Assembly (NCBI GenBank): GCA_013042915.1
Contig: JABDPF010000007.1
Span: forward strand, 1-64,000
Direction: 5' to 3'
DNA: 64,000 nt
Origin: Lysobacterales bacterium
Lineage (GTDB): Bacteria; Pseudomonadota; Gammaproteobacteria; Xanthomonadales; SZUA-36
The notes under the pieces were generated by a model, which did no database searches, had not been told where the DNA came from, and was given only the letters and a program-made list of their open reading frames with translations. Below, piece by piece: positions 2,560 to 14,179 of this stretch; position 1 is the first letter of the stretch, and each line of letters begins with the position of its first letter. Made by a program: the position numbers and the translations under genes.

Positions 2560-3489
2560 GTGATTCAAATTGCCAAGAAATCGCGGGAAAGGCGCCGGCA
2601 GCGCCGCGTCTTTTCGCAGGGCCTGCTGGTTGCGTTGTCTTTGTTTGTCCTCTGCGGCAGCCTTCCGGCCGACGATACGGCGCTGTACTGGTCGATCTCC
2701 CGCAACGGGGAACCGGTGGGCCGACTGCTCGGCACGATCCACAGCGAGGACCCGCGGGTGCTGGATTTCCCGGACCCCTTCGTCGAAGAGCTCACTTCGC
2801 ACCGGGTGTTCGCGATGGAAATGGTTCCCAACTTGCCTACGCTGGCCCGGCTTACCGATTACATGCATTACCAGGACGGTTCCCTGCTGGCAGAGGTCGT
2901 TGGGATGGAGCGCTTTGAGCGCCTGCAGCACGCGCTTTCCAGCTATAGCATGCCACCTGGCTGGGTGGACGGCATGAAGGTCTGGGCAGCGGTGCTGACC
3001 CTCAGCGTGCCGCCGTCGAAGTCGGGCTTTTTCATGGACCTGTCGCTGTCGCTGCGAGCCGCCGGTGCGGGCCTGCAGGTGATTGGCCTGGAAACCCTCG
3101 AACAGCAACTCGCGTTTCTCGAGGAAATGCCTCTCGGGCAGCAATTGGAGCTTCTCGACCACGCGTTGGTCGAGCACGAACGGGTGGAGGCTGTGCACGT
3201 GCAGCTGGTCGACAGTTACCTGCAGGGAGACCTCGTAAAGCTCGAAGCGCTGTCAAACGAGCAGATGACGGAGTTGTCGAACGAGGCCCGGGAGTACTTC
3301 CTTCGAGAAGGCATCGATGAACGAAACCGGCGAATGTTGGAATCGATGGCTCCGGAACTGGCGCAGGGTGGTGTTTTTGTCGCGGTAGGCGCCCTGCACC
3401 TGCCGGGCGAGAACGGCCTGGTCAGCTTGCTGCGTGCAGGCGGATACGATCTCGAGCCGCTGCCGATGCCGTTTTCAACGCCGGAATAA
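2560..3489 (+). CDS. TraB/GumN family protein
   Basis: 309-residue protein of the TraB/GumN family (ChaN/Tiki-related haem-binding or protease-like fold; bacterial function unsettled). Family hallmarks are LLGTIHSEDPRVL near residue 55, the E-rich FAMEM strand, and the C-terminal GVFVAVGALHLPGENGLVSLLRAGGY, the two GX2H-type motifs expected to bind a metal. A hydrophobic N-terminal stretch (about residues 20-37) suggests export or a membrane anchor. The GTG start is preceded by GGAGGA at 2545-2550. Its 3' end overlaps the convergent DoxX gene by 15 bp. Confidence 0.8.
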   Translation: MIQIAKKSRERRRQRRVFSQGLLVALSLFVLCGSLPADDTALYWSISRNGEPVGRLLGTIHSEDPRVLDFPDPFVEELTSHRVFAMEMVPNLPTLARLTDYMHYQDGSLLAEVVGMERFERLQHALSSYSMPPGWVDGMKVWAAVLTLSVPPSKSGFFMDLSLSLRAAGAGLQVIGLETLEQQLAFLEEMPLGQQLELLDHALVEHERVEAVHVQLVDSYLQGDLVKLEALSNEQMTELSNEAREYFLREGIDERNRRMLESMAPELAQGGVFVAVGALHLPGENGLVSLLRAGGYDLEPLPMPFSTPE

Positions 3490-4134
3490 CGGCGTCAGCC
3501 CCACCAGCAGCGCGATCACGAAAAAGCCGATACCCCAGGCCGGTTCGACGAACACGGTCGTGACGCCGAGCACCGCGAACATCAGGGCCGCGGCGATGCC
3601 GTCGCCGAAGCGGTCGGTGACGCAGGCGTCGCGGCCGGTCAATTTCAGAAGGCCGTGGTCCAGGCTGATTTTTCCACCGCCGTGGAATACCAGCGGCAGC
3701 AGCATGCCGGCGAACAGCAGCGGCAGTTTGAAATTGCCCGAGCCGTCGGCGGTGATCACGTAGCCGGACCACAGCTCGGCTAGCGAACCCCATTGACCGG
3801 GCCAGTGCACCGCGGCCGTGGCCACGCCGGTGATGACCAGCAGGGAAACCGCCGCGAAGCGCGTGAAAAGGCCAAGCAGTAACAGCATCGCGAACACCAT
3901 TTCGCCCCAGGTGGCCGCCAGCCAATTGAGGTCGGGGCCCAAGGCGCTGATGGGCCAGGGAAAACCTTTTTGCCAGTCTGCCCAGGGGATGTCGCCGAAC
4001 CAGTTCTGGCCCCGGAACTTGCCGTAACCCGCTTCCCAGAACTCCCAGAAAAGCAGGGCACGAAGTGCCAGCGGCCAGAGGTAATCGCCGGCGACGCGAA
4101 GTCGGGCGGTCAGGTTGTCGTATGCGTTGTACAT
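3475..4134 (-). CDS. hvfD: DoxX family membrane protein (HvfD-like)
   Basis: 219-aa integral membrane protein of the DoxX family, with about four hydrophobic segments: ALRALLFWEFWEAG, MVFAMLLLLGLFTRFAAVSLLVITG, LPLLFAGMLLPLVFHGG and ALMFAVLGVTTVFVEPAWGIGFFVIALLVGL. It is the last gene of the hvfABCD-type operon; its ATG overlaps the hvfC stop by one base (TGATG). In Haemophilus Hvf and related bufferin loci a DoxX protein accompanies the modification enzymes, probably serving redox or membrane functions; its exact role is unproven. The long insertion GYGKFRGQNWFGDIPWADWQKGFPW is shared by this subgroup. Confidence 0.85.
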   Translation of the reverse strand: MYNAYDNLTARLRVAGDYLWPLALRALLFWEFWEAGYGKFRGQNWFGDIPWADWQKGFPWPISALGPDLNWLAATWGEMVFAMLLLLGLFTRFAAVSLLVITGVATAAVHWPGQWGSLAELWSGYVITADGSGNFKLPLLFAGMLLPLVFHGGGKISLDHGLLKLTGRDACVTDRFGDGIAAALMFAVLGVTTVFVEPAWGIGFFVIALLVGLTPLFRR

Positions 4135-4892
4135 CAGCAGGTCCTCCGTGTGCCGAGAAGGATGTCCTTGTGGCGGAAATCTTCGAGCAGGCCGGCACCG
4201 GCGGTGACGACGCGCTGCGGATCGGGGTGTTGGAGGGTCCGCGCCACTTCTTCGAGCAATTCCTGCCCACTCGCTCCGGGTTGTTGCCCGATGCGCTCCA
4301 GCAGGTGCCGGGAAACGTCATTCAGCTGTATGAAGCCGATGTCGTCGGACGCGTTGCGGTAAACCAATAGATGGGTGGCCCGGTCCGGCGGCGAGGCTGG
4401 TTGGAAATCCGGACCGATGCGGTGAACCGGGAAGCGGTATCCCAGCAAGTGCACCAGGGGACTCAAAACGGGTATCCCCTGCAGAAGATTGCCTTCGGAA
4501 TCGACAGATTCGTCTTCCAAATCGCGCTCGTCGAGCTCGAGCGCGATTTCGACCCATTCGTAGTGGGCCAGCTCCAGCAGGAACGGAGGGTCGTCTTCCC
4601 GGGCGCCCCGTTCGTCTTGCAGATAGCGCAGAAACTCCCGGGCGATTTCCGGAAACAGCGGCGTTCGACTGAGGTGTTCCGAATAAAATTCGCGGATCAG
4701 CTGACGCCAGCGCGTCTTGCCATAGATTTTTCGCAGAACCGGAAAATTGCCGGCAAGCAGGCTCTGCATGTTGTTGAAGAAGAGGTCGCGGTAGATTTTC
4801 ATCCGCCGATCTTCGACACCTTCGGGCGCAGGCTGGCCCTGTGGGTCGCGAATATGCGCGGTGAACGCGCGCTGGACGCGCTCGCGGTTCAT
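4134..4892 (-). CDS. hvfC: DUF2063 protein, HvfC-like partner of the DUF692 enzyme
   Basis: 252 aa with the DUF2063 N-terminal domain (FTAHIRDP....[25 protein letters not shown]....W..LIREF, residues about 9-75). In MbnC, HvfC and BufC proteins this domain recruits precursor peptide to the DUF692 iron enzyme. The C-terminal half ([18 protein letters not shown], then LLVYRN...IGFIQLND) also fits the family. Starts at ATG with a 4-bp ATGA overlap with hvfB, implying translational coupling and a heterodimer. The old label 'putative DNA-binding' is not supported by this context. Confidence 0.88.
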
Positions 4893-5737
4893 GCCTGCCT
4901 GGCGGTGGCCGACCGGTGCCGCTGCTGCATTTGGCTGATTCGGCGAACTTCGTCGAACAGCTCATCGATCGGGGGCAGGTTGAAGTCGCGCTCGAGCAGG
5001 ACGGGAAAGTCGCCGAAATGGTCGAACGCGCGCTCAAGGATGGACCAGACATCGGGTATCACGGCGGCGCCGTGCGTGTCGACGATCAGATCCTCGGCCT
5101 CGTTGTGGTGGCCGGCAATGTGTCCGTAGGCGATGCGGTTTCCGGGCAGTCCGCACAGAAATTCATCGACATCGTAGCGGTGGTTGACGCTGTTGACGTA
5201 GATGTTGTTGACGTCCAGCAGCAGATCGCAATCCGCCTCGGCCAGCACCGCGTTCACGAACTCGAGCTCGGTCATCTCGGCGCCGGGTGCCGCGTAATAG
5301 GACACGTTTTCCAGCGCGATGCGGCGCTCGAGCATGTCCTGGACCTGCATCACCCTGCCGGCTACGTAATGCACCGCCTCCTCGGTGAAAGGTATGGGCA
5401 TCAGGTCGTACAAGTGGCCCTCGTCCGAGCAATAGCTCAGGTGCTCGCTGTAGCAACGCACCCGGTGCTCGTCGAGAAACCGGCGCAACTTGCGCAGGAA
5501 CGTCTCGTCCAGCGGGGTCGGGCCGCCGATTGACAGCGACAAGCCATGGCAGACCAGCGGGTAATCCTCGACGACGTCTCGGAATTGGCGCCCCGGCCGG
5601 CCGCCGACCCCGATCCAGTTTTCGGGGGCGACTTCGAGAAAGTCGACTGGGCCGGGTCCGTGTTGGCGAAGCGGGCCCATCAGGGCCCGCCTCAATCCCA
5701 ATCCGGCGCCTTCCACCTTGTAGGACTTCGTGTGCAT
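4889..5737 (-). CDS. hvfB: DUF692 multinuclear iron enzyme (HvfB/BufB/MbnB family)
   Basis: TIM-barrel iron oxygenase of the DUF692 family, predicted to convert Cys residues of the HvfA peptide into oxazolone/thioamide or related copper-binding groups. Conserved family segments with probable iron ligands are [61 protein letters not shown] and [10 protein letters not shown] chose the ATG at 5737 (282 aa), where family homology begins ([19 protein letters not shown]); a GTG at 5791 would overlap hvfA. No strong Shine-Dalgarno is seen for the ATG, so the start is provisional. Confidence 0.92.
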
Positions 5738-5765
5738 ATCGGTGTGCGATCGCGCCCGGGTCAGA

Positions 5766-6098
5766 TCAACCCTCGTTGTCGTCCTTGGCACCGCACTTGC
5801 CCTCGGCGTGCTTGGCGGCCTTGTCCTTCATCTCGGCGCCGCATTTGCCTTCGCCACACTTGCCCTCGGCGTGCTTGGCAGCCTTGTCCTTCATCTCGGC
5901 GCCGCACTTGCCTTCACCACACTTGCCCTCGGCCTTCTTGGACTTGTGATGGTCGGCGACCATGTAGCCGGCGTCGAGCTCGGTGGCTTCGAACGGATCA
6001 TCGGCTGCCAGGACCGATGAGGAGCCGATCATGGACGTGACGAATGCAGCGCCAACGGCGGCAGCAACAGGCTTGTTGATCATTGATTTCTGTGACAT
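5766..6098 (-). CDS. hvfA: HvfA-type Cys-rich RiPP precursor with five EGKCG motifs
   Basis: 110-aa exported peptide. Residues 1-31 form a signal sequence (MSQK, a hydrophobic core [13 protein letters not shown], then SSSVLAA). The mature part begins acidic ([19 protein letters not shown]) and ends in a Lys/Gly/Cys-rich region with EGKCG at 57-61, 62-66, 78-82, 83-87 and 99-103; these are its only cysteines. In Haemophilus HvfA, EGKCG cysteines are modified by HvfBC and bind copper; a similar role is inferred here. The ATG at 6098 has GGAGAA 8 nt upstream; the longer TTG start is rejected. The leader holds a GGCCC-N3-GGGCC repeat (6126-6138) but no clear sigma-70 promoter. Confidence 0.9.
5797..5922 (-). 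repeat. Two tandem 63-bp units coding the EGKCG array in hvfA
   Basis: Units 5797-5859 and 5860-5922 differ at only about three positions, and a third partial unit starts at 5923. Each unit encodes 21 residues with two EGKCG motifs joined by [11 protein letters not shown]. The near-identity at DNA level, including third codon positions, points to recent duplication or slippage, so array length may vary between strains. Confidence 0.93.
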
Positions 6099-6220
6099 GT
6101 AAAGATTCTCCAATTGTGTATGTGTGGCCCCCAGGGCCTTGGCTCGTCAAGAGGGATTGTCGACCCCAAGCCTTATTTTGGCGGGGTTCGGATCAGGAGA
6201 CCGGGCTTCGCCGGCGATTA

Positions 6221-6856
6221 TTACAATACGGTTTTGTTGCGAAAGGTGCAAAGGTCGCGAAGGATGCACTCGGGACAATTCGGTTTTCGAGCCTTGCAGA
6301 CGTACCGTCCGTGCAGGATCAACCAATGATGCGCGTCTTTGAGATAGTCCTTCGGAACGGCCTTGAGAAGCTTTTTCTCGACCTGCAGCGGCGTCTTTCC
6401 CGAAGCCAGCCCGGTACGGTTCGATACCCGGAAAATGTGGGTGTCGACCGCGATCGTGGGTTGGCCGAAGGCGGTGTTCAGTACCACGTTCGCAGTCTTG
6501 CGCCCCACTCCGGGCAGGGCTTCCAACGCGGCCCGTTCGGACGGCACCTTCCCATCGTGCTGCTCGATCAGTATTCGGCAGGTCTTGATGATGTTTCCCG
6601 CCTTGGCATTGAACAGCCCGATGGTCCGGATGTAGTGCTTCAACCCATTCTCGCCCAGCTCCAGGATGGCCTGTGGGGTGTTGGCCGCGGGAAAGAGGCG
6701 GGCCGTGGCCTTGTTTACACCCACGTCCGTGGCCTGGGCGGACAGGATGACCGCCACGAGCAGCTCAAACGGGGTCTGGTACTCGAGCTCCGTCGTGGGT
6801 TCGGGCGTTACCGATTTGAGGCGCTCGAAGAATTCCACGCGGTCGGCGGCTTTCAT
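6221..6856 (-). CDS. nth: Endonuclease III
   Basis: DNA glycosylase/AP lyase that removes oxidised pyrimidines. 211 aa, the usual length. Shows the helix-hairpin-helix LPGVGRKTANVVL with its catalytic Lys, the catalytic Asp in VDTHIFRVSNR, and the C-terminal 4Fe-4S loop C-X6-C-X2-C-X5-C (CKARKPNCPECILRDLC). Overlaps rnfE by 4 bp as last gene of the rnf operon, the same order as E. coli rsxABCDGE-nth. Confidence 0.97.
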   Translation of the reverse strand: MKAADRVEFFERLKSVTPEPTTELEYQTPFELLVAVILSAQATDVGVNKATARLFPAANTPQAILELGENGLKHYIRTIGLFNAKAGNIIKTCRILIEQHDGKVPSERAALEALPGVGRKTANVVLNTAFGQPTIAVDTHIFRVSNRTGLASGKTPLQVEKKLLKAVPKDYLKDAHHWLILHGRYVCKARKPNCPECILRDLCTFRNKTVL

Positions 6857-7533
6857 GTGCCGGCCTCGGAAGCCTCGCTCGCGACCCGAGTCGTGGTGCC
6901 ACGCGGCTTGCGGTTATCCAGCCAGCTGCGGGCGGCGATCAGGAGACCCAGGCCGATGAAGGCGCCGGGGGGCAGCATGGCCAAAAGGAATCCCGGGTGA
7001 TCGGGCAGCAGCGTCACCTCCAGGTGGCGCCCCGTCTCGCCGAACATCAGCTGCGCCTGGGCGAACAACGTACCCTGCCCGATGATCTCGCGCATCGCGC
7101 CCAGCAACACGAGCGCGAGACAAAAACCCAGCCCGGTCGCGAGACCGTCGATTGCGGCCGCCAGTGGCGGGTTACGCGACGCGAACGCCTCGGCGCGCCC
7201 GATGATCGCGCAGTTGGTGACGATGAGAGGTATGAATATTCCGAGTACCCGGTACAGGTCGTGGAACCAGGCTTGCATCAGCAGCTGAATGACCGTTACG
7301 ACCGAGGCGATGATCAGCACGTAAGCGGGTATTCGAATCTCCGGCCGGAGCACGCCGCGGATCAGTGAAACGGCCAGGTTGGAGAACACCAGTGTCAGGG
7401 TCGTGGCGAGACCCAGCCCGATCGCATTGACCACGGTCCCGGTGACCGCGAGCAGGGGGCACAGGCCCAGCAGCACCACCAGGCCGGTATTCTGCTGCCA
7501 CACTCCGTCGCTGAAGATTTTGCGGTAGTTCAT
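6853..7533 (-). CDS. rnfE: Rnf/Rsx electron transport complex subunit E
   Basis: Integral inner-membrane subunit (226 aa) of the Rnf complex, which couples electron transfer between ferredoxin and NAD to ion movement, or in aerobes keeps SoxR reduced. Typical RnfE/NqrD sequence: NTGLVVLLGLCPLLAVTGTVVNAIGLGLATT, IRIPAYVLIIASVVTVIQLLMQA, YRVLGIFIPLIVTNCAIIGRAEAFASRN. Six membrane segments are visible. Starts inside the rnfG stop (4-bp overlap) and runs into nth. Confidence 0.96.
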   Translation of the reverse strand: MNYRKIFSDGVWQQNTGLVVLLGLCPLLAVTGTVVNAIGLGLATTLTLVFSNLAVSLIRGVLRPEIRIPAYVLIIASVVTVIQLLMQAWFHDLYRVLGIFIPLIVTNCAIIGRAEAFASRNPPLAAAIDGLATGLGFCLALVLLGAMREIIGQGTLFAQAQLMFGETGRHLEVTLLPDHPGFLLAMLPPGAFIGLGLLIAARSWLDNRKPRGTTTRVASEASEAGT

Positions 7534-8192
7534 GGTTCGCGCACCGTGTCGTCGGTCGGCGTGGTCGCGGCTTGCTGGAATACGCGTTCACGGTTGAGTC
7601 GATAGTATTCCAGCGCGGAACGCACGGCGTCCACCACGGCGCGTGGCGTGATGGTGGCGCCGGTGAACTGGTCGAATTGCCCACCGTCGCGCTTGACGGC
7701 CCATCCCCCCGGCCCGGGATCGCGCAGCGAGGTGCCGTTGAATCCCAGCACCCAGTCGCTTTTTTCAACCTCTATGGCGTCACCGAGCCCCGGTGTTTCG
7801 CGGTGCGAGACGACGCGCACGCCGGCAAGGGTGCCGTCGTACCGGGTGCCCGCAAGCAGGTGGATATTGCCGCTGTACCCATCGACCGCTTTGAATCGGA
7901 AGATCACGGCCACCGGCCGTGCATCCCGCCGCGCCCGGTAGGCGGTAACGACCTGGCCTCGGGGAAAATAGGCCTCGTCCTGCAGCTCGATCGTGTCGTG
8001 GAGCAGATCGTTGTCGTACTCGGAGGCGGGCAGTATCTGGCCGAGTTGCCGCTCCACGACGCGGCGCTCCTGGGCCTCGATCCGCTCGGCCGTCAACTGG
8101 TGCACGGCGGCCAGCAGCGCGGTGCCGAGCACGGCAACCAACCCCAGCGCCGCGGCGCTTTTGAACACCATGCGACCGCTATCGCCGTTCAT
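7530..8192 (-). CDS. rnfG: Rnf/Rsx electron transport complex subunit G
   Basis: 220-aa subunit with one N-terminal membrane anchor (AAALGLVAVLGTALLAAVHQLTAERI) and a periplasmic FMN-binding domain. FMN is expected to be attached to the Thr in the motif D-x-F-T-G-A-T (FDQFTGATITPRAVVDAV). HRETPGLGDAIE is the other family signature. Overlaps rnfD by 14 bp and rnfE by 3-4 bp, indicating a translationally coupled membrane-complex operon. Confidence 0.95.
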   Translation of the reverse strand: MNGDSGRMVFKSAAALGLVAVLGTALLAAVHQLTAERIEAQERRVVERQLGQILPASEYDNDLLHDTIELQDEAYFPRGQVVTAYRARRDARPVAVIFRFKAVDGYSGNIHLLAGTRYDGTLAGVRVVSHRETPGLGDAIEVEKSDWVLGFNGTSLRDPGPGGWAVKRDGGQFDQFTGATITPRAVVDAVRSALEYYRLNRERVFQQAATTPTDDTVREP

Positions 8193-9219
8193 GGCCGAAT
8201 ATCCGCGGTCGGGTAAATCGATCGATGAGCGGCGCCGCCATGTTCATCAGCAGTACGGCAAAGGCCACGCCATCGGGGTAGCCGCCCCAGCGCCGGATCA
8301 CGATGGTCAGGATTCCGACACCGGCGCCAAAGAACAGGCGCCCCCTCGGGCTGGTGCAGCCACTGACCGGGTCCGTGGCGATGAAGAACGCCCCGAGCAG
8401 CAGTGCGCCCGAAAGCAGGTCGATGATTGGCGACGGGTTGTGGCCGGGATCCGCCAACCAGGCGAGAGCACCCAGGGCAAGCGCGCTGCCGATCACGGCG
8501 GCGGGAACGTGCCAACTGATGATGCGACGAACCAACAACCAGGCGCCGCCCAGTGCGTAGCCCAGCGCGACCCATTCCCAGCCGCGTCCGGCTACGGTTC
8601 CGAAGACGGCCGTGCCGCGCAAGGATTCGATGGACTGCCCGGTCGATGCGCTGTTGCGAATGGCATCGAGCAGGGTTGCACCGCTGATGGCATCCCAGCC
8701 GACACCGCCGGGTGGTTGCCCGGCGATAATGGTCAGGGCGCTGTCGATCCATCCTGGTGCCTGTCCCGTCATGCCGGAAGCCGGCAGCCAGGCGGTCATG
8801 ACCTGGGGAAAACTCACCAATACGACCACGTAGCCCACCATCGCCGGGTTGAACAGGTTGTCGCCGAGCCCGCCGTACAGGTGCTTTGCGATCAGGATGG
8901 CGAACACCATGCCGACGAACGGGATCCACCAGGGCGCCAGGGGCGGCACGCAGAGCGCGAACAACACGGCGGTTACCACGGCGCTGTAATCGCCCAGGAA
9001 CAGTCGAACCGGTTTTCGGCGCACCATCAGCGCCAGGGCTTCCAGGCCGATTGCAAAAACCGCCGCAAGCAGAATCTGGAACAGGACGCCAGGACCGAAA
9101 AACCAGGTATGCGCCGCGATGCCCGGAACGAGGGCGTAGAGGACCTGGCGCATCACGCCGCCAACCGTCCGGGAGGGTGAATAGTGGGGCGCCATGCCGG
9201 TGTGAAATGGCCGGTTCAT
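8179..9219 (-). CDS. rnfD: Rnf/Rsx electron transport complex subunit D
   Basis: 346-aa polytopic membrane subunit, NqrB-like. The SGAT flavin motif (AISGATLLDAIRN, residues about 180-192) marks covalent FMN attachment. Other family segments are FNPAMVGYVVVLVSFPQVMTAW, FFIATDPVSGCTSPRGRLFFGAGVGI and the terminal GGYPDGVAFAVLLMNMAAPLIDRF. Start codon overlaps the rnfC stop by 4 bp. Confidence 0.96.
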   Translation of the reverse strand: MNRPFHTGMAPHYSPSRTVGGVMRQVLYALVPGIAAHTWFFGPGVLFQILLAAVFAIGLEALALMVRRKPVRLFLGDYSAVVTAVLFALCVPPLAPWWIPFVGMVFAILIAKHLYGGLGDNLFNPAMVGYVVVLVSFPQVMTAWLPASGMTGQAPGWIDSALTIIAGQPPGGVGWDAISGATLLDAIRNSASTGQSIESLRGTAVFGTVAGRGWEWVALGYALGGAWLLVRRIISWHVPAAVIGSALALGALAWLADPGHNPSPIIDLLSGALLLGAFFIATDPVSGCTSPRGRLFFGAGVGILTIVIRRWGGYPDGVAFAVLLMNMAAPLIDRFTRPRIFGHERR

Positions 9220-10799
9220 GCGTCGTTTTCCCTTCGTTTGCGAGAACGCGCTATCGCCTCGGCGATCCGGTCCCGGCTTACCCGGCTGTCGCGCAGGGCC
9301 TTCTTTTTTTCAGCAATTCGCTGTTTACGCTCTTTTTTCTGGCGGTCCAGTCGTTCTTCGCGGGCTTCGAAACGCCGACGCGCGAGGTCTGCGCGGGCCC
9401 GCTCCTCGGCCCGCTCCCGCAAGTGTGACTTGCCGAACCGGAACCACTCGACCAGCGGAATATGGCTGGGGCAGACGATATCGCAGCAGCCGCACTCGAT
9501 GCAGTCCGCCAGTCCGGCATCCGCGGTCTCGGTCCAGCGGCCGGCGCGAATGAAGCGGTTCAGCTGCTGGGGCAGGAGCCGGGCGGGACAGGCCGCGGCG
9601 CACTCACCGCAACGAATGCAGGGGAGTTCGCCCTGGGGCGCTACGAGGTCCTTTTCGGTGAGTACCAGGATGCAATTGGCCGCCTTGGTCACCGGGTTGC
9701 GGTCGTTCGCCAGGGGAAAACCCATCATGGGTCCGCCCAACACCAGGCGGGCCGCACCCGGCGCGTAACCCCCTGCCTGCTCGACCACGTCGGCTATCGG
9801 CGTGCCGATCGCGGTCAACACGTTGCGCGGCCTGCGGATCCCGTTGCCGGTAACGGTAACGATGCGCTCGACCAGCGGTTTGCCTTCGACCACTGCTCTC
9901 GCCACGGCCGTGGCGGTAGCCACGTTCTGGCAGAGCAGCCCCAGGTCGGCCGGGCGCCCGCCCGACGGCACCTCGAGCCCGGTGAGCACTTGGATCAGTT
10001 GTTTCTCTGCGCCCTCGGGATAAAGGGTGATCACCTTGATGACGTCGATCGCGTCGGCGCCGGAGCGCCCGACCGCGTCGCGCAGGGCGTGGTGGACGGC
10101 GCCCATCTGGTCCTCGATCGCAATGATGGTGCGCTCGGCGCCTACGGCCCGCTGCAGGATGCGCGCCCCCAGGACGATGGAATCGGGCTGTTCCCGCATC
10201 AGCATCTCGTCGCAACTGATGTACGGTTCGCACTCCGAGCCGTTGAGAATCAACGTGTGAATGCCCTTGTTCCGTGCATCGCTGACCTTGAACGCGGTGG
10301 GGAACATGGCGCCCCCGAGGCCGACGATGCCGCTTTCCCGGATTCGACGCAGCAGTTCCTCGGGTGAAAGGTCCTGCCAGTTATCCGCCGGTTCGGGCTC
10401 GATCCAGGTATCCAGGCCGTCGGGCCGGATCACAACGCAACGCCCCTCCATGCCGGAAGGATGGCTGATCGGGTGCTTGATGATGGCGCTGACGACGCCC
10501 GAGGTCGGAGCATGCACGCAGCCGCTGCCCCACTGACGAAAGCGCCCGATCGTCTCGCCTTTCAGAACCTGCTGACCCTCGCCGACGACCGGCTCTGCCT
10601 CGCGCCCCGACTGCTGCAGCAGCGGTACGTATAACCGTTGCGGCAGCGGCGTGCGTTCAAGCGGGTGCTCGCAGGAGATTGTTTTGTGATGGCGCAATCG
10701 CAAACCGCCGTGGAACGGAAACAGGCGCTCACCGGCTTCGAGAGCCTGTCGCTGTCGCCTTTCCTGCAGGCGGCGCTGATGCAATCGCCGCAGCATCAT
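9216..10799 (-). CDS. rnfC: Rnf/Rsx electron transport complex subunit C
   Basis: 527-aa peripheral subunit carrying the NADH/FMN-binding module and two 4Fe-4S clusters. Order: a lipoyl-like N-terminal domain ([14 protein letters not shown]...[13 protein letters not shown]), the NADH/FMN part ([59 protein letters not shown]), the clusters [12 protein letters not shown] and [12 protein letters not shown], then a charged coiled tail of about 75 residues. I start at the ATG at 10799, which overlaps the rnfB stop (ATGA); the open frame continues upstream only as the shadow of rnfB. Confidence 0.94.
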
Positions 10800-11341
10800 C
10801 TTCGTCCCGCGGCGGCTGGCCGGGGCCATGACCAGCTGTCTTCGTCTGGGCTGCGCGGCACCATGTCGATGCAATCGACCGGGCAGGGAGGCAGGCACAG
10901 ATCGCAGCCGGTGCATTCGGCGGCGATGACGGTGTGCATCAGCTTGGGCGCACCGACAATAGCGTCCACCGGGCAGGCCTGGATGCACAGCGTGCACCCG
11001 ATGCAGGTCTGCTCGTCGATCAATGCCACGGCAGGCGCCGCCTCCTCGCCGTTGTCGGGGTTCAGTGGCAGCGGTTCGACGCCGAGCAGGTCCGCCAGCG
11101 CCCGGATGCCGTCCTCTCCGCCCGGCGGGCACTGGTTGATCGGCGCCTCGCCGGATGCGATGGCCTCCGCGTAGGGCCGGCAACCCGGAAAGTTGCACTG
11201 CCCGCACTGCGTTTGAGGAAGGATGGCGTCGACCTGGTCCACCACCGGGTCGCTGTCGACGCGGAACCGGCGCGCCGCCCAGCCGAGCCCCAGCCCGAAC
11301 AGCATGCCTACCAGGGAAATGGACAGGATCGCCGTCAGCAT
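10796..11341 (-). CDS. rnfB: Rnf/Rsx electron transport complex subunit B
   Basis: Electron-input subunit (181 aa). It has an N-terminal membrane anchor ([25 protein letters not shown]), a Cys cluster near residues 46-70 ([11 protein letters not shown]...NQCPPGG), then two ferredoxin-type 4Fe-4S motifs, [16 protein letters not shown] and [16 protein letters not shown]. Placed 9 bp after rnfA and overlapping rnfC. Confidence 0.96.
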
Positions 11342-11350
11342 GCGTCGGCC

Positions 11351-11932
11351 TCAGACCCTGGCCAGGCCGGTGAAGCCCATGAAGGCAAGGGCCATCAGCC
11401 CGGCGGTAACCAGCGCGATCGGCGCGCCCCGAAAATGGATCGGAACGTCGGCATCCGCCAGCCGTTCCCGCATGGCCGAGAAGCTGATCAGCACGAGGCC
11501 GAAACCCGTTGATGCGCCAAAGCCGTAAAGGGCCGACTGCAGGAGATTGTGCTGTTCCTGAACGTTGAGCAGGGCCACGCCAAGCACGGCGCAGTTACTC
11601 GTGATCAACGGCAGGAAAATGCCGAGTACGCGGTACAGCAGCGGACTGGTTTGGCGCATCAACAGCTCGGTGAACTGCACGACGGCCGCGATCACGAGGA
11701 TGAAGCTCAGCGTGGCCAGGTATTCCAGCCCGAGCGGGATGAGCAGGTATTCGTTCAGCAGGTAACTGCTCATCGAGGAGAGCGTCAGCACGAACATCGT
11801 GGCCACCGACATCCCGACCGCGCCTTCGAACTTGCCGGATACGCCCATGAACGGGCAGAGCCCGAGAAACCGGACCAAAACGAAATTGTTGGCCAGGACC
11901 GTACTGACCAGTATCAGCAGGTAGGACTCCAT
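11351..11932 (-). CDS. rnfA: Rnf/Rsx electron transport complex subunit A
   Basis: 193-aa six-helix membrane subunit, the same length as E. coli RsxA. Diagnostic stretches are [49 protein letters not shown] and [23 protein letters not shown]. The ATG at 11932 is preferred to the TTG three bases upstream. It lies 42 bp after the metG stop on the same strand, so it may be read from the metG promoter as well as its own. Confidence 0.96.
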
Positions 11933-11974
11933 CAATCTTCGTTGAACCGGTCGTGTCGTTCCAAGCGCAGGTCC

Positions 11975-14008
11975 TCAGGTAACCCTCAGGCCCGGTCTTG
12001 CGCCCGTGTCCGGTTCAAGGATGTAAAGGTCTTCGCCACCCGGGCCGGCGGCCAACACCATGCCCTCAGACGTGCCGAACCGCATCTTTCTTGGCTTGAG
12101 GTTAGCCACCATGACGGTCAGGCGTCCCTCCAGGTCGGCGGGGTCGTAGGCCGACTTGATGCCCGCGAAGACCGTTCGGGTTTCGTTGCCGATGTCCAGG
12201 GTGAGCTTGAGCAGTTTGCGCGCCTCCGGTACCGATTTTGCTGAGACGATCCTTGCCACTCGAAGGTCGACCTTCAGAAAGTCGTCGATTCCGATCTCGT
12301 CGGCAAGCGGGTCGAAAGCTTCGGCCTCTGGTTCGGGGCCGGGCTCGGCACTGGGTTGCAGCGACTCCTTTGACGCCTCGATGATGGCCTCGATTTTTAC
12401 CGGGTCGACCCGTATCAGCAGAGGCTGGAAGGCATTGAGGGTGTCGCCCAGCAGGGGCTGATCCAGCCGGCTCCAGTCTGCAACGTCGGTGCCCAAAAAC
12501 TGGGAGGACTTTTCGGCCGTGAACGGCAATACCGGGGCCAGGTAGGCCATCAGCACGCGGAACAGGTTGAGGCCCTGGGTGCAGACAGCCTGCACGTGGT
12601 CTGCCTTGCCTTCTTGCTTGATCTGAACCCACGGTTTTTCCTCGTCGATGTAGCGGTTGGCCTCGTCTGCCAGGGCCATGATCCGACGCACCGCGGACTG
12701 GTAGTTACGCGTTTCGTAGTCGATGGCGACGGCTTCGCGGGCGGCCAAGAAAGTTTCCATGAGGTCCGGGCGGGGCAACGCCTGCGACAGGCGACCCTCG
12801 AATCGCTTGCCGATGAAGCCGGCGCAACGGCTTGCAATGTTGACCACCTTGCCGATGACGTCCGAGTTAACGCGCTGCACGAAATCGTCCATGCTGAGGT
12901 CGATATCACCGGTGCCGGGGCCCAGCTTGGCCGCGTAGTAATAGCGCAGGTAATCCGGGTGCAGGTGGTCGAGGTAAGTGCGCGCGTTGATGAAGGTGCC
13001 GCGCGACTTGGACATTTTGGCGCCATCGACGGTCAGGAAGCCATGGGCGTAGACGGCGGTGGGAACGCGAAAGCCGGCGCCCATCAGCATGGCCGGCCAG
13101 AACAGCGTGTGGAAATAGACGATGTCTTTGCCGATGAAGTGGTGCAGCTCGGTCTTGGAGTCCGGCCCCCACCAGGCGTCGAAATCGAGGCCTTCGCGTT
13201 CGCACAGTTCCATGAAACTGGCCGCGTAGCCCACCGGCGCGTCGACCCACACGTAAAAGTACTTGTCCTCGGTACCCGGGATGCGAAAACCGAAATACGG
13301 TTCGTCTCGCGAGATGTCCCAGTCCCTCAACCCATCGGTGAACCACTCCTGCAGCTTGTTGGCGATTTCCGGCTGCAGGGCCCCTGACGCGATCCATTCC
13401 TTGAGCGGCTCCTCGAATTCCGACAGGCGGAAGAAATAGTGCTCGGATTTCCTCAGGACGGGTGTGCTGCCGCTGACGGCTGAACGCGGTTCGATCAGGT
13501 CGGTCGGTGCGTAGGTGCTGCCGCAGGCCTCGCAGCTGTCGCCGTATTGGTCGGGGGTTTTGCACTTGGGGCAAGTACCCCGGATGAACCGGTCGGGCAG
13601 AAACATGCCTTCCTGCTCGTCATACAGTTGCTCGATATCGCGGCGCGCGATGTGTCCGCCGGCATCCAGATTTGCGTAAATTTTTTCGACGATCTGGCGG
13701 TTGAACTCGCTGTGCGTGGAGGTGTAATTGTCGAAGCTGATACCGAAATCGCGGAAATCGCCCTTGTGCTCCTCGTTCAGCCGGTCAATCAGTTCTTCCG
13801 GCGAGGTGCCCTCGGATCGCGCCCGTAACATCACCGGAGTGCCGTGCGCATCGTCTGCCCAGGCAAAGTAGCATTCGTGTCCCTGGCAGCGTTGGAAACG
13901 CGCCCAGATGTCGGTCTGGATGTATTCCAGCATGTGGCCCAGGTGGATGGCGCCATTGGCGTAGGGCAGGGCGCTGGTCACCAGAATCTGTCGTGTGTTC
14001 TCGTTCAT
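11975..14008 (-). CDS. metG: Methionyl-tRNA synthetase
   Basis: Charges tRNA-Met and initiator tRNA. 677 aa from the ATG at 14008, equal to the E. coli enzyme; the open frame upstream lacks homology. HIGH motif is [15 protein letters not shown], the zinc knuckle is [17 protein letters not shown], and KMSKS is [13 protein letters not shown]. The last 110 residues form the OB-fold tRNA-binding/dimerisation domain ([15 protein letters not shown]...[11 protein letters not shown]...MVLAA). A Glu/Pro-rich linker precedes it. Divergent from mrp, as in E. coli. Confidence 0.97.
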
Positions 14009-14087
14009 GGCGGTTCCGCTTCTCGGGGCGACGCATCGCGGGCGCGGCCCGGGGTGCAATGAATCGCGAATTATCTCACGACCGCGG

Positions 14088-14116
14088 TTCACGATCGACA
14101 CCCAAAACGCTACAAT
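14088..14116 (+). promoter_or_regulatory. Sigma-70 promoter candidate for mrp
   Basis: TTCACG at 14088-14093, a 17-bp spacer, and TACAAT at 14111-14116. The predicted start near 14123 gives a 57-nt leader before the mrp ATG. Lies in the 171-bp divergent region shared with metG. Confidence 0.6.
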
Positions 14117-14179
14117 GTGCCGCTTTATCACACGGCCCCGACGCCCATCGGCGCACCTCGCCCCCTGGAATGGATCATC

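Follow-up and report, generated by a model that had tools for sequence, protein, structure and literature searches.

A complete hvfABCX operon of the oxazolin/captophorin type in a Lysobacterales bacterium, with a family-wide promoter-like leader element

The window (the whole 64,000-nucleotide stretch of Lysobacterales DNA analysed here) carries at 3475-6098, on the minus strand, a four-gene locus, hvfABCX, that is very probably a complete oxazolin/captophorin-type RiPP operon making a copper-binding 5-thiooxazole peptide. The locus adds one more member to a RiPP class that has been published before, the oxazolin/fontiphorin “captophorins” of the Lys-Cys group, or Buf_EGKCG bufferins. Its gene content, family membership, catalytic and contact residues, and conservation through the bacterial family are directly observed; we infer the chemistry, export and copper binding in this organism from characterised homologues. 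The cassette is of a standard, widespread kind with a good published description, and this example alters nothing in the accepted picture. Novelty may lie only in an element in the leader of hvfA, whose function is a prediction.

All four genes named in a preliminary description of this DNA are present at that place. The first, hvfA (5766..6098), encodes a precursor peptide of 110 aa. It is followed on the same strand by hvfB (4889..5737), encoding an MNIO (DUF692) maturase of 282 aa, hvfC (4134..4892), encoding a DUF2063/NGO1945_C partner protein of 252 aa, and hvfX (3475..4134), encoding a DoxX-family membrane protein of 219 aa. HvfB scores 431.6 bits with NCBIfam model NF003818 (cut-off 360), and the DUF2063 partner and DoxX protein of the preliminary description are confirmed by NF050145 (HvfC, 314.1 bits, cut-off 142) and NF050144 (HvfX, 112.2 bits, cut-off 80). 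Pfam scores are far beyond chance for MbnB_TglH_ChrH (PF05114, 7e-104), DUF2063 (3e-27), NGO1945_C (4e-29) and DoxX (PF07681, 1e-15). The solved structure 3DEE is matched by HvfC, and the one nearest to HvfB is 3BWW, which has been described as close to HvfB (PMC13419390). The four genes had been called overlapping, which is true of hvfB/hvfC (4 nt) and hvfC/hvfX (1 nt) and not of hvfA and hvfB, which lie 28 nt apart if hvfB begins at ATG 5737. That ATG was taken as the start because homology to relatives begins there; hvfA overlaps hvfB only under an alternative GTG start at 5791. On the plus strand, a TraB/PrgY/GumN-family gene (2560-3489) converges on hvfX with a 15-nt overlap and is kept beside hvf in the family.

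The translated hvfA contains five EGKCG motifs in the order 2+2+1, with a 21-residue repeat, and its N-terminus, MSQKSM...SVLA/ADD, is a predicted signal peptide as judged by eye. In an NCBIfam profile search, the HvfA-family KCGExKCG domain model NF050137 matches at 59.4 bits against a cut-off of 19.5. These features agree with the signal-peptide-bearing, EGKCG-rich precursor described earlier. The narrower equivalog model NF050188, which represents close orthologues of Haemophilus HvfA, matches at 59.1 bits, below its cut-off of 95. This result counts against a captophorin-type operon, and since the cut-off is not reached, the claim made here is membership of the HvfA family rather than orthology with HvfA.

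Alignment of 69 homologues shows no variation at the residues of HvfB presumed to act as iron ligands or in catalysis, matched by motif rather than by structure (H64, H99, E143, D175, N178, H206, H210, D220, H222, E249 and D251); the DUF692 enzyme had been credited with conserved motifs, and it has lost none of these ligands. The published substrate contacts of FonB, an EGKCG enzyme, are two Arg and an Asp-Phe, and residues of this type are present in HvfB as R16, R17, D251 and F252. The same cassette is known from Haemophilus, Fontimonas and Neisseria, where it converts EGKCG cysteines to 5-thiooxazoles and the products bind copper; the chemistry of HvfBC has been revised to installation of a 5-thiooxazole, not an oxazolone/thioamide (PMC12668002, PMC13419390). 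By homology, the product here is most likely a periplasmic copper-binding peptide with a 5-thiooxazole, rather than an oxazolone/thioamide, at each of its five cysteines. The earlier proposal of a periplasmic modified, probably copper-binding peptide keeps its identity and likely role, given the family models, the catalytic residues and the architecture in relatives, and is outdated in its implied chemistry.

In the proposed pathway, HvfA would be synthesized with a Sec signal peptide, and HvfC, as partner, together with HvfB, as a multi-iron MNIO, would turn the cysteines of the five EGKCG motifs into 5-thiooxazoles with a loss of about 4 Da per Cys. The HvfA peptide would then be exported, and its thiol-bearing rings would bind Cu(I) in the periplasm. 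HvfX, the DoxX protein, may assist in a membrane or redox step. The operon would be expressed from an ECF-sigma promoter at 6225-6198 that responds to stress, a step held less firmly than the chemistry, export and copper binding. Assignment as bufferin Buf1/BufB was rejected, since the precursor has no DUF2282 match in Pfam and the BufB model gives 264.3 bits against a cut-off of 310. Methanobactin was also rejected, with the MbnB equivalog at 46.2 bits against a cut-off of 325.

The genome contains a single hvf locus, and a search of the whole genome found no second precursor or MNIO. HvfB is present in 35 of 39 family genomes, and in all 22 of those with a completeness of 90% or more and little contamination. 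Its identity to named relatives (Lysobacterales, Wenzhouxiangella and Salinisphaerales bins) is 64-71%. The order rnfABCDGE-nth-hvfABCX-TraB, with TraB convergent, is kept in family stretches wherever the contig reaches, the lone exception being one insertion before TraB (L088), and it is largely kept in Wenzhouxiangella relatives too, which retain rnf-nth-hvf; the stretches compared, family and Wenzhouxiangella together, are window 2560-14131 and loci L073-L092 and L036-L046. That the cassette holds one position suggests vertical inheritance. A decayed or chance locus lacking a working pathway is scarcely credible given the intact frames, high curated scores and invariant ligands, the conserved leader element, and the near-universal presence of the locus in the family.

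The preliminary description had set this locus apart by the number of its motifs and by its tandem-unit organisation. Neither distinction survives: relatives' precursors have 0-14 EGKCG and published precursors vary in repeat number, which rules out motif number as a distinguishing feature, and Haemophilus HvfA is itself tandem, with three units (PMC13419390). It is likewise very improbable that the five motifs and tandem 21-residue units mark a distinct subtype whose product is unlike the characterised ones. While the motif-pair spacer does exceed the unit of 17 residues published for many precursors, Haemophilus HvfA is built from the same unit, number and spacing vary freely among close relatives, and every contact residue is retained in HvfB.

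Among the relatives' precursors read, EGKCG is the commonest motif (274) and EGSCG the second (128), and many precursors mix the two. In ten complete precursors, Cys is never preceded by Lys and the motifs are EGSCG/EGACG only, and their HvfB retains the contact residues; these precursors lie upstream of hvfB in L037, L039, L041, L046, L049-L052, L054 and L061. In the main texts of the articles consulted, neither EGSCG nor EGACG is mentioned. Published work showed that FonBC accepts Ala, Arg or Thr in place of that Lys, and this tolerance makes it plausible that EGSCG/EGACG precursors are modified as well.

The leader of hvfA contains a bipartite promoter-like element with −35- and −10-like boxes, TGTAATAATC-N12-CGGTCT (6198..6225, minus strand), about 100 nt upstream of the hvfA start, with its first half covering the stop codon of nth. 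The element or a close variant, with invariant spacing, occurs in 25/25 family leaders, the window's included; these are all the family leaders in which hvfA could be placed, and because the relatives share ancestry, the count overstates their independence. Across the 25 leaders, no change is seen in the starting T and G, in the second A of TGTAAT, or anywhere in CGGTC. Within the 64-kb window the element scores 33.6 and nothing else exceeds 8, and in the genome it is the only exact match. Sites with one mismatch number seven in the genome, the hvf site included, as compared with two for a reversed control, and none of the seven lies at a sigma locus. There are 12 sigma-70 region 2 genes in the genome; a cognate sigma factor was sought by its autoregulation, and the element is absent near the ten sigma loci read. 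A scan for the sigma-70 consensus around the operon gave nothing above chance. Outside the family, hvf loci lack the element apart from one near match in L049. General occurrence of the element at hvf loci was rejected, a loose version occurring in 3 of 35 outside-family leaders as compared with four for a reversed control. In longer leaders there is also a TGCTAGNCT block, possibly another promoter.

A parallel to the element comes from Neisseria, where the SigE consensus is GTMAGBWTT, 12-13 nt, CGTCTAAH (PMC2893595). The element shares with the promoters of neisserial SigE and Haemophilus RpoE2 (PMC2893595, PMC7907618) a −35-like GTAA, a spacing of about 13 nt, and a GTCT before the same DoxX operon. 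It differs in having CGGTCT rather than CGTCTA, and the operon here contains no sigma gene. Given the likeness to the SigE consensus and the ECF control of the homologous operons in Neisseria and Haemophilus, the element is most likely a predicted ECF-sigma promoter. Those homologous operons use ECF sigma factors to answer oxidative stress, so other signals may act beside copper or outweigh it. It could be that the same modified peptide serves mainly to protect the envelope against oxidative or hypochlorite stress rather than to buffer copper. In Haemophilus and Neisseria, oxidative-stress ECF sigma factors control both the homologous operons and msrAB (PMC7907618, PMC2893595), the leader element resembles such ECF promoters, and DoxX proteins have been linked to redox stress. 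However, characterised EGKCG products bind copper, related bufferins raise copper tolerance, and stress and copper roles are compatible. A mainly protective function is a rather unlikely alternative to the copper-binding role preferred here.

A second feature of the leader is a GC-rich hairpin, GGCCC-TGG-GGGCC (6126..6138, minus strand), upstream of the hvfA ribosome-binding site GGAG (6111-6108). Comparable hairpins occur in 19 of the 25 family leaders as compared with 3.4 expected from shuffles, a count subject to the same overstated independence, and the sequence changes from genus to genus with base pairing preserved. As a whole, the window's leader is no more stably folded than shuffled sequences (z −0.2); the small hairpin is the exception, and it becomes apparent only when the family is compared. 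Known RNA families gave no match over threshold in the leader; the best, the histone 3' stem-loop (19.3 bits against 34), was rejected as a chance match to a short hairpin. In four leaders (L011, L015, L016 and L020), the hvfA ribosome-binding site is immediately preceded by a hairpin and then a T run, an arrangement reminiscent of an attenuator or a terminator; the window's hairpin has no T run. Taken with the motif variation in relatives, the leader features suggest a broader model, which we put forward tentatively, at a little under even likelihood: an ECF sigma factor nearly dedicated to it, acting at TGTAATAATC-N12-CGGTCT, would drive the family-wide operon behind rnf-nth, with the hairpin before the ribosome-binding site, to supply the peptide in an envelope-stress response, and the EGSCG/EGACG motifs of relatives would imply a wider substrate motif.

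These observations extend a recently characterised class of copper peptides to a family whose members nearly all carry it, at a constant chromosomal position. The leader element offers a concrete handle on the regulation of EGKCG loci whose operon has no sigma gene, and the EGSCG-bearing relatives provide natural substrates for studying maturase specificity.

Among characterised systems, the oxazolin locus hvfABCX of nontypeable Haemophilus influenzae has the same four products, the same precursor unit, and conserved HvfB ligand and contact motifs. It differs in having six EGKCG rather than five and shorter pair spacers, whereas the locus described here lies behind rnf-nth with a family-specific leader element. 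The fontiphorin (fon) system of Fontimonas thermophila, whose 5-thiooxazole product binds copper, also combines an EGKCG precursor with an MNIO and a DUF2063 partner, and often DoxX; its precursor FonA has seven modified sites, one of them EAKCG, and the present precursor has five EGKCG as predicted sites (PMC12668002). The Buf_EGKCG/oxazolin bufferins, a group of ~2,000 proteins with a variable number of two-EGKCG repeats, share the signal peptide, those repeats, and the precursor-MNIO-DUF2063-DoxX core (PMC12452194). The repeat is 21 residues here and 17 in that group, a difference that falls inside the variation seen in relatives, and the operon includes a DoxX gene, which is frequent, but not universal, in HvfA/oxazolin loci.
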